A stretch of 64,000 nt of DNA from Phycisphaera sp. GTDB lineage: Bacteria; Planctomycetota; Phycisphaerae; Phycisphaerales; Zrk34. The stretch covers positions 1 through 64,000 of the forward strand of contig WGMA01000043.1 in the NCBI GenBank assembly GCA_016125285.1, in the 5' to 3' direction. How positions within the stretch are numbered: position 1 is the first letter of the stretch; each line of letters opens with the position of its first letter. Below the pieces are notes generated by a model. It searched no databases and was not told the origin of the DNA. It saw only the letters and a list, made by a program, of their open reading frames with translations. Positions 34,697 to 54,418 of this stretch are shown here, piece by piece. A program made the position numbers and the translations under genes.

Positions 34697-34985
34697 TTTG
34701 ACTTCTCCCTTCCCCGTCAGGCGGAATGTTGCGTGAAAAGGTATGTCTTCTCTCAATCATTGGTAGGTCCGACGCGGCGCGGGGCCCATCAACGCGGTGC
34801 GGATCACGGCGTGGGTATTGGTCCGGGGCGAGCGTGGGCACGCGGATGATTGGCGCTTTCGGTTGGGAGCGGATCGAGGGTGTGAGTAGGATGGGGGTGT
34901 TGTGGAAGTGGCGTGCACCCACGGGGCGGAACCCGTGGGCTTTGGGGCAGCGCGGAGTGGGGCGCGAAGGATCGGAGGCGTAGAC
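34697..34985. other. 289-bp divergent intergenic region
   Basis: This region separates the minus-strand secreted protein from the plus-strand exporter genes and should hold both promoters. It contains the palindromic repeat at 34918-34939 and no other clear feature. Confidence 0.4.
34918..34939. repeat. CCCACGGG...CCCGTGGG hairpin repeat
   Basis: Eight-base arms CCCACGGG and CCCGTGGG enclose GCGGAA. The 22-mer differs by one base from the copy at 54379-54400. Confidence 0.7.
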
Positions 34986-38386: not shown

Positions 38387-38414
38387 GGCACGCGTACGAC
38401 TTCGTAACCCCTCG

Positions 38415-38538
38415 CCCCCAGGTGGGGGAGAGGTTGGGTGAGGGGGTCGATTCATCGAACACGGCATTTCGTGCGGGAAACACGCCACGTATTCGACGGC
38501 TTCACCCTCACCCCTGCCCTCTCCCTCAATGGAGAGGG
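38415..38538. repeat. CCCTCACC/CTCTCCC-type intergenic hairpins
   Basis: CCCCCA/TGGGGG (38415-38428) and CCCTCTCC/GGAGAGGG (38517-38524 and 38531-38538) are short stems separated by about 90 bases of non-coding DNA. They close the transporter unit and face the gene ending at 38549, so they may be terminators. Confidence 0.5.
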
Positions 38539-38548
38539 TGTATCATCC

Positions 38549-39625
38549 CTACTCGCCGAGCACCCTCGCCACCTCCGCCGCGTCCGTCAGCCCGCGCTCC
38601 ACCGCGGTCGCCGCCGCGTCGCGCAGCGTCACGTACCCCGCCCGTCCCGTCAGCAGCTTCGACATCGTGCTCGCGTCCGCGCGATCGAGCACGGCGCGAC
38701 GCAACGCGTCGTCCATCTCCGCGTACTCCGCGATCGGTACACGACCGGAAAAGGTGTCAGACACCTTTTTTCGCAGCAGCCGCTGCGCCACCACCGCGTG
38801 CACCGCGCTGCTCAGCTGATAAGGCTCGATCCCCATCTCCAGCAATCGCGCCAGCGCCGTCGCGGGTGAACCGGCGTGCAGCGTCGCGATCAGACGATGC
38901 CCCGACAGCGCCGCGCCGATCGCCGCCGTCGCCGTCGCCGCGTCACGCACCTCGCCCAGCATCAGCACCTGTGGGTCCTGCCGCAGGATCGACCGCAGCG
39001 CCCGCTCGTACGTCAGCTCGCCGTGCGGCGTCACCTCGATCTGCGTCACCCCCGCGATGTCCCGCTCCACCGGGTCCTCCAACGCAATCACGCTCACGCC
39101 CGGCTGCGTCGACACGATGTGCTCCAGCAACGCATAAATCGTCGTCGTCTTGCCCGACCCCGCCGGGCCCGTCAGCAGCAGCATCCCCGTGTCCGCCCTC
39201 GCGAAGCGACGCAGCCCGTCGACCACCGCGTCCGGCAGGCCCAGCGCGTCCAGCTCGCGCGGCTGCGTCAGCTCCGCGGGCAAACGCACCACCGCCCGCA
39301 GCCCGTGCGTCGTCGGCATCACCGACACGCGCATCTCGATCGCCCGCCCCGCCGTCGGCGACATCACACTCAACCGCCCCTCCTGCGGGATGTCCGGCCG
39401 ATACGTCAGCAGCTTGCCCATCACCATTAACCGCGCCACCACCGCCCGCCCCGTCTGCCCATCCAACCGCTGCGCCGTGTCGAGCACCCCGTCGACCCGC
39501 ACACGCACCGCGTACCCCTCGGCTTCCGGGTCCACATGCACATCCGACGCGCTGCGCGCCACCGCGTCGTCGAGCAGGCGGTCGACGATCGGTCGGGCGT
39601 CGATGGATTCGGGGCGTTCGTGCAT
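38549..39625 (-). CDS. GspE/PilB/PilT-family secretion ATPase lacking the zinc motif
   Basis: ASDVHVDPEAEGYAVRVRVDG, Walker A GPAGSGKTT, Asp box LEDPVE, LRSILRQDPQVLMLGEVRD and HAGSPATALARLLEMG mark a type II secretion/type IV pilus ATPase. After VVAQRLLR, family members normally have LCPxCR...CxxCxGTGYxGR. Here that part is only KKVSDTFSGRVPIAE, encoded by a palindromic repeat, so no cysteine remains. The N-terminal N1 domain is also missing. It may be a specialised or decaying paralogue. Confidence 0.82.
   Translation of the reverse strand: MHERPESIDARPIVDRLLDDAVARSASDVHVDPEAEGYAVRVRVDGVLDTAQRLDGQTGRAVVARLMVMGKLLTYRPDIPQEGRLSVMSPTAGRAIEMRVSVMPTTHGLRAVVRLPAELTQPRELDALGLPDAVVDGLRRFARADTGMLLLTGPAGSGKTTTIYALLEHIVSTQPGVSVIALEDPVERDIAGVTQIEVTPHGELTYERALRSILRQDPQVLMLGEVRDAATATAAIGAALSGHRLIATLHAGSPATALARLLEMGIEPYQLSSAVHAVVAQRLLRKKVSDTFSGRVPIAEYAEMDDALRRAVLDRADASTMSKLLTGRAGYVTLRDAAATAVERGLTDAAEVARVLGE
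38749..38771. repeat. AAAAGGTGTC-A-GACACCTTTT palindrome inside the GspE-like gene
   Basis: Ten-base arms AAAAGGTGTC (38749-38758) and GACACCTTTT (38760-38769) flank one base, with TT following. It is read in frame as KKVSDTF at the place of the missing zinc motif. Confidence 0.75.
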
Positions 39626-39707
39626 GACCACAGTGTACCGCCGCAGCGTGCCTCTATGCGCGTTTCACCCAGGGCACCGCGTGTGACGTCCGTTATGATG
39701 TGCCGTG

Positions 39708-42849: not shown

Positions 42850-43394
42850 TCACCCACAACGGGGGCGATACGATCAACGTTACCGCATCGACACCATGGC
42901 GATCGCGTGTATTAACTCGACGTGTACTCGTGACGTCAAGCGTGTTGCTATTCGCCGCCAGCCTTACGCAGGACGGGTTCTTGATCAGCGGAGAGAACCC
43001 GCGAGCGTGGGCATCGTGTTTCGGCCTGCTGTTTTTTGGTTGGATAGGCGTGCTGCAAGGCGTGTTCGCATGGCTGGCGAATCCGCTCTTGATCAGCAGT
43101 TGGCTCTTGCTGAAGGCACGGCGGACACGGTCAATCATGTGTGCGCTAGCTGCCTTGATGTTTGCACTGAGTTTCCTGCTGTATAAGGAAATCGTCACAG
43201 ACGAGGCCGGCGGCGTGTCATCCATTACGCGTTACTCGGCTGGATACTGGCTTTGGGTAGCCAGCATCGCGATCGCAGTGCTTGGCGCAATCGTGTGGAA
43301 GCCAAGAGATGGTGACGCGGTTCAATCAGAACCTGCTGAGGCGGGCTCGCGTGACGAAATCCGCGCACAAAAAAACGGCGGGGTGTCTCACTGA
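42846..43394 (+). CDS. Small polytopic membrane protein
   Basis: A GTG at 42846 overlaps the recJ stop (GTGA) with AGGA upstream. The 182-residue product has about four hydrophobic segments (LVTSSVLLFAASL, CFGLLFFGWIGVLQGVFAWL, IMCALAALMFALSFLLY, YWLWVASIAIAVLGAIV) and a polar C-terminus. No family is recognised. Base composition is less GC-rich than in recJ. Confidence 0.6.
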   Translation: MITHNGGDTINVTASTPWRSRVLTRRVLVTSSVLLFAASLTQDGFLISGENPRAWASCFGLLFFGWIGVLQGVFAWLANPLLISSWLLLKARRTRSIMCALAALMFALSFLLYKEIVTDEAGGVSSITRYSAGYWLWVASIAIAVLGAIVWKPRDGDAVQSEPAEAGSRDEIRAQKNGGVSH

Positions 43395-43406
43395 CCAGCC
43401 CGCCGT
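43369..43406 (-). terminator. Minus-strand terminator, copy 1
   Basis: ACGGCGGG (43375-43382) pairs with CCCGCCGT (43399-43406), followed on the minus strand by T7. It overlaps the end of the plus-strand membrane protein gene. Confidence 0.65.
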
Positions 43407-43701
43407 CGTTCCGGGGTCACTACTTATGCCTTAAGTATCGGCGCGCGGGCCGGGCTTCTCTATGGGGCGCTTTCCCCAAATCTCAAACAGGTCCGTCTTC
43501 CACACCTTGGCGCGGCGCGGTCGGCGCATAAAAAAACGGCGGAGTGCCAAAAAGGCCAATCCGCCGTCGTTCCGGGGTCAATGTTGATGAACTCATTATC
43601 GACCGATCGTGTGAATCGATCTATGGGGTAATTACCCCGATTCTGGCGGCCGTCGCAGGTGTTGATGTGCCAACGAGATGCGCGGAGTGACTGAACCCCA
43701 T
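43395..43701. repeat. Two diverged tandem copies of a GGGG-N6-CCCC/terminator unit
   Basis: Each copy reads, on the minus strand: GGGG-N6-CCCCATAGA (43625-43638; 43464-43477), 55-60 bases, then GACCCCGGAACGACGGCGG leading into a T7 terminator (43530-43567; 43369-43406). The region holds no convincing gene. The glpK stop lies just upstream on the minus strand. Confidence 0.6.
43530..43567 (-). terminator. Minus-strand terminator, copy 2 (glpK side)
   Basis: ACGGCGGA (43536-43543) pairs with TCCGCCGT (43560-43567), followed by T7 on the minus strand. It lies 135 bp after the glpK stop. Confidence 0.7.
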
Positions 43702-54363: not shown

Positions 54364-54378
54364 GAACGTCGCGAGGAA

Positions 54379-54400
54379 CCCACGGGACGGAACCCGTGGG
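54379..54400. repeat. CCCACGGG...CCCGTGGG hairpin repeat
   Basis: Arms CCCACGGG and CCCGTGGG enclose ACGGAA. The 22-mer is one base different from 34918-34939. It lies between convergent genes ending at 54363 and 54419. Confidence 0.75.
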
Positions 54401-54418
54401 CTTGGGTGGTTCGAAGGA

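Follow-up and report, generated by a model that had tools for sequence, protein, structure and literature searches.

How did a perfect palindrome come to lie in frame within the gene of a secretion-type ATPase, and did it cost the enzyme a zinc motif? The question is raised by a stretch of 64,000 nucleotides from Phycisphaera sp. (assembly GCA_016125285.1, contig WGMA01000043.1, positions 1 to 64,000), here called the window. A sequence-only reading of the window had proposed that a mobile palindrome was inserted into a GspE-like gene and replaced its tetracysteine zinc loop while keeping the frame. The features concerned are as follows.

38549..39631, minus strand: T2SSE/GspE-type ATPase gene, 360 amino acids from the GTG at 39631; an ATG lies at 39625
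38749..38769, no strand assigned: 21-bp palindrome AAAAGGTGTC-A-GACACCTTTT, probably a stray member of a palindrome family associated with RAYT genes
38747..38770, minus strand: codons for the linker KKVSDTFS, eight residues long (288-295 in the 360-residue ORF), at a predicted beta-hairpin tip

The palindrome and its host gene

The palindrome itself was confirmed. It occupies 38749-38769, has perfect 10-bp arms around a 1-nt centre (21 bp in total) and is read in frame within the ATPase ORF as KKVSDTF, as had been claimed. Since 21 bp is a multiple of three and the frame contains no stop codon, the protein stays open. The GC content of the palindrome is 38%, versus 70% for the host gene, and shuffles of the window gave no match to the 21-mer.

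The ORF contains a T2SSE ATPase domain, with a nearly whole-length match to PF00437 in Pfam (residues 14-356 of 360, E 9.7e-81). Its top NCBIfam matches are GspE, PilB and PilT, none of which reaches its cut-off (for TIGR02533, 305.8 bits, the cut-off being 630.25). A PDB search gave EpsE and PilB as the nearest solved relatives. In the alignment with EpsE (4kss), chain residue 301 is followed by residue 340, and the EpsE/GspE structures thus have about 38 extra residues, zinc loop included, at the position where the palindrome lies in the window gene. There is no cysteine in the whole window protein; the tetracysteine zinc loop of GspE is thus absent. Judging from its sequence, the window ATPase is a short form without this loop. 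It resembles the GspE/PilB/PilT ATPases (T2SSE, PF00437) over nearly its full length and differs from them in being short, in lacking the tetracysteine loop and in scoring under every NCBIfam subfamily cut-off.

Is the palindrome a repeat of its own genome? A count over the 6.09 Mb gave the window copy as the sole one, and no further copy was found even at three mismatches; there is no repeat family of this sequence in the host. With respect to the criteria for REPs, the window palindrome fits in size (short, about 20-40 bp) and fails in copy number (REPs have many copies) and in location (REPs are extragenic). Neither a GTAG/GTGG nor a CGTC tag is present at the foot of the stem; the window copy is flanked by CCGG and TTCG, one on each side.

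A palindrome family linked to RAYT genes

I scanned 392 Planctomycetota genomes for the palindrome. The sequence AAAAGGTGTCNGACACCTTTT, with at most one mismatch, was found at 21 sites in 12 genomes, and the reversed palindrome, an equally palindromic control, at none in the same genomes. The 15-bp core gave 20 sites versus 7 for its control in Planctomycetota, a weaker test than the 21-bp one because short patterns arise by chance. Among GTDB species genomes, at least 119 stretches contain the 19-bp core; among the matches listed are Planctomycetota, Bacteroidota, Bacillota, Proteobacteria, Actinomycetota and candidate phyla. Some of the other genomes hold several copies each, and the copy number is patchy among related genomes. 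The core GGTGTCNGACACC is constant across phyla, and the outer arms differ by lineage. This core has no stop codon in two of the three frames, whatever the centre base. A search of IMG/VR with the 15-bp core gave at least 120 stretches and was set aside, since a pattern of 14 specified bases should turn up at random in so large a collection. In the open-licence literature, searches for an earlier mention of the palindrome or of KKVSDTF returned only unrelated papers; an earlier report elsewhere is possible.

The neighbourhood of the palindrome was surveyed in the 119 listed GTDB loci (0.82 Mb, 153 palindrome sites). They contain eight RAYT-like ORFs, or 9.7 per Mb. Of these, seven are situated 106 bp or less from a palindrome copy (P about 2e-4 under random placement within the loci). 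Two palindrome copies lie on either side of the RAYT in L082, one copy on either side in L096, a Stieleria locus, and a variant palindrome pair on either side in L156. A Y1_Tnp match above the cut-off is present in seven of the eight ORFs, the exception being that of L154. The four RAYT ORFs tested against NF047646 (REP_Tyr_transpos) all match it with E values from 1e-15 to 1e-19, below its cut-off. When the C-terminal HTH/DnaA_C-like extension of TIRYT was sought with Pfam in the palindrome-linked RAYTs, only Y1_Tnp came above threshold. From the adjacency in these other genomes, the palindrome family is linked to RAYT genes, and the window palindrome is probably a stray member of it.

The constant core with lineage-variable outer arms might also be expected of a regulatory or terminator-like site kept for a DNA-binding protein, next to which the RAYT genes lie incidentally. 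However, the RAYT linkage far exceeds random placement, coding frames hold several of the copies, in some cases within variable linkers, and the patchy copy number also speaks against such a site. I consider this explanation unlikely.

Does the host genome encode a mobiliser? There are four Y1_Tnp matches in it. One of them, L168, is RAYT-like and cut by a contig end (G000:C70), and it was the best phmmer query for all palindrome-linked RAYTs. A RAYT-like gene, of the kind that the sequence-only reading had suggested looking for, is present, but the palindrome upstream of it is AAAAGGGGTCGGGAGTCATTTT and not that of the window. No cognate RAYT flanked by the window palindrome was found in the host genome, L168 being seen on its upstream flank only. 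Given the single copy and the different palindrome of L168, the mobiliser would be missing from the host genome, lost from it or left out of the assembly.

The linker in orthologues and the route into the gene

To what was the palindrome added, or what did it replace? The window ATPase was aligned with 17 orthologues (53-67% identity), all belonging to its own order. The linker between QRLLR and GR varies from 8 to 16 residues among them. In the three nearest orthologues, L003, L309 and L004 (67, 64 and 63% identity), it consists of exactly 8 residues (RRDGAGYR, RRRKSGYA and RRQNDEYR, respectively), the same length as KKVSDTFS in the window protein, and the palindrome was not found in their linker DNA. 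None of the 17 has the tetracysteine motif. A CxxC of any kind is absent from 16 of them, and the only one, CLKC in L309, lies outside the loop. For an empty-site comparison, no species above 70% identity to the window ATPase was found.

These alignments suggest that the linker was already short before the palindrome came to occupy it, and that its length stayed the same. Since the length equals that of the closest orthologues, codons would have been replaced rather than added. A plain insertion of seven codons would imply an earlier linker of one residue, shorter than in any orthologue; the old codons would therefore have disappeared, either in the same event or subsequently. In the structure model (m74b43fea3765, mean pLDDT 87.6), strands are assigned to residues 268-281 and 284-296 in 351-residue numbering, and the palindrome-encoded residues are predicted to form the tip of this beta-hairpin. 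A change at such a tip is predicted to be well tolerated.

The most likely explanation is that the palindrome is a stray copy of the RAYT-flanking family, put into the ATPase gene by single-strand transposition and replacing linker codons. In other genomes, the family flanks genes of RAYT-type (Y1/HUH, IS200-like) transposases. One of these may have catalysed the single-strand transposition that left a copy in the ATPase gene, and that RAYT would now be absent or unassembled. The landing site would have been a hypervariable surface linker at the hairpin tip, 8-16 residues long in the orthologue group and occupied by the zinc subdomain in GspE. The old linker codons may have been exchanged, not extended, at the event or afterwards, and the change is probably nearly neutral for the enzyme. 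Several observations speak against this explanation. A plain 21-bp insertion would lengthen the linker, which is not longer; the genome holds a single copy; the palindrome of L168 differs; and coding sequence can approach the motif, as in L318-L320 (see below).

The perfect arms, the 1-nt centre, the single genome copy and the unchanged length could also result from template switching at a quasi-palindrome during replication, which would have completed the hairpin locally without a transposase. Such an event accounts for the palindromicity but not for the match of the sequence to a family that occurs in many phyla, and it is decidedly unlikely here. It is very improbable that point mutations made the linker drift by chance to a perfect copy of the family. 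The linker is hypervariable, KK and F are conservative with respect to the RR and Y of orthologues, and near-matches may occur in possibly native coding sequence (L318-L320). However, a match at 20 of 20 positions is expected about 6e-6 times in 6.1 Mb of genome (taking all 4^20 sequences as equally likely), the difference in GC content marks a composition foreign to the gene, and the DNA of the orthologues shows no approach to the palindrome. Finally, the original proposal that the palindrome was inserted into a GspE with a zinc loop and deleted the loop is hardly credible: the site does correspond to the zinc loop of EpsE/GspE and the linker residues are occupied without a change of frame, but all 17 orthologues lack the tetracysteine motif and the nearest three have an equally short linker without the palindrome, which is what the sequence-only reading itself had named as a refutation, so the zinc-loop account fails. 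What survives of the idea of a mobile palindrome rewriting a protein is the RAYT linkage of the family in other genomes and the in-frame recoding of the linker.

Comparable copies in other genes and known systems

Do palindromes of this family enter other genes? The comparable cases are of uneven strength and were drawn from loci chosen for holding the palindrome; they therefore show the existence of in-frame copies, not their frequency. In L330 (G325:C1:4215442-4217355), about 33 additional residues lie in frame within a linker and hold two copies of AAAAGGGGTCAGACACCTTT(T/A); seven homologues lack them. The PabB-like genes of L342 and L343, from two species of one genus, have AAAAGGGGTCAGACACCTTTT at the same place, with the first base lost in L343; AAAGGGGTCAGACACCTTTT is common to both and lies in a variable linker. 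TrpF of L125 has an 8-residue insertion relative to its PDB homologues. The epimerase of L134 matches one distant homologue with no difference in length, and the NAD synthetase of L106 has a copy between two domains. In UvrA of L118, an in-frame copy lies just beyond the conserved end, where an insertion is indistinguishable from a variable tail. L066 gave no match in the PDB alignment.

In a siroheme-synthase-like gene of three species (L318, L319 and L320), AAAAGGTGTC(A/T)GACACC encodes KVSDT. The sequence may be native to the gene, or else the trace of an old insertion. L174/L318 was dropped as evidence for an intragenic copy, since homologues have KVSDT-like residues at the same length.

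Together with L330, L342/L343 and L125, the window gene provides comparative cases of how palindromes enter genes, by insertion or by replacement. It is tempting to go further and propose that the RAYT-linked family with the core GGTGTCNGACACC repeatedly swaps surface-linker codons in unrelated proteins across phyla without changing their length, acting as a sequence-conversion element and not by simple insertion; I regard this proposal as doubtful.

It is known that intragenic REPs with GTAG and CGTC repeats lie inside ORFs and add or alter residues in unrelated proteins (Di Nocera et al. 2013; PMC3733652). It was proposed that proteins tolerate them where they fall in loops or flexible linkers, and uvrA is a recurrent host (PMC3733652). 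The present palindromes resemble them as short palindromes within ORFs, including the UvrA copy of L118. The window copy differs in having no GTAG/CGTC tag, in being single in its genome and in leaving the linker length unchanged. As in the RAYT/TnpA_REP systems (PMC2817692, PMC6006769), the window palindrome elsewhere flanks RAYT-like Y1_Tnp genes, sometimes paired on both sides; it differs from them in that no cognate RAYT was found in its own genome and the RAYT matches are below the NF047646 cut-off.

The TIRYT group (RAYT subclass 2.1) has flanking inverted repeats with the motif GGGGWSAS (PMC3733652). Variant copies of the present family, AAAAGGGGTCAGACACC, contain GGGGTCAG, which fits this motif, a resemblance and not proof of membership; the window copy itself contains GGTGTCAG, which departs from GGGGWSAS at one base. 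Rickettsia palindromic elements (RPEs, as cited in PMC3733652) are likewise palindromic repeats in frame within genes. They differ in sequence and lineage and occur repeatedly within a host genome; RPE-1 is also longer. Beyond the known intragenic REPs, the present analysis adds an untagged family with the core GGTGTCNGACACC, the linkage of this family to RAYT genes and the comparative evidence of an unchanged linker length. An in-frame protein change can thereby be tied to a specific transposase-linked palindrome family without a GTAG or CGTC tag.

Other repeats were noticed in the window. Just 3′ of the ATPase stop codon, at 38517-38538, lies a CCCTCTCC-N-GGAGAGGG palindrome, which has 94 sites genome-wide (G000) versus none for the reversed control and is therefore an abundant dispersed palindrome of its own genome. 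A sequence that looks related to it is present at 38409-38433. A 29-nt, palindrome-like repeat, ACCCACGGG-N-CCCGTGGGCTT, occurs at 34917-34945 and 54378-54406 with 93% identity. Downstream of a glycerol-kinase-like gene, two 92-nt copies (43349-43440 and 43510-43601) are 73% alike and share the pattern AAAAAAACGGCGG...CCGCCGTCGTTCCGGGGTCA.
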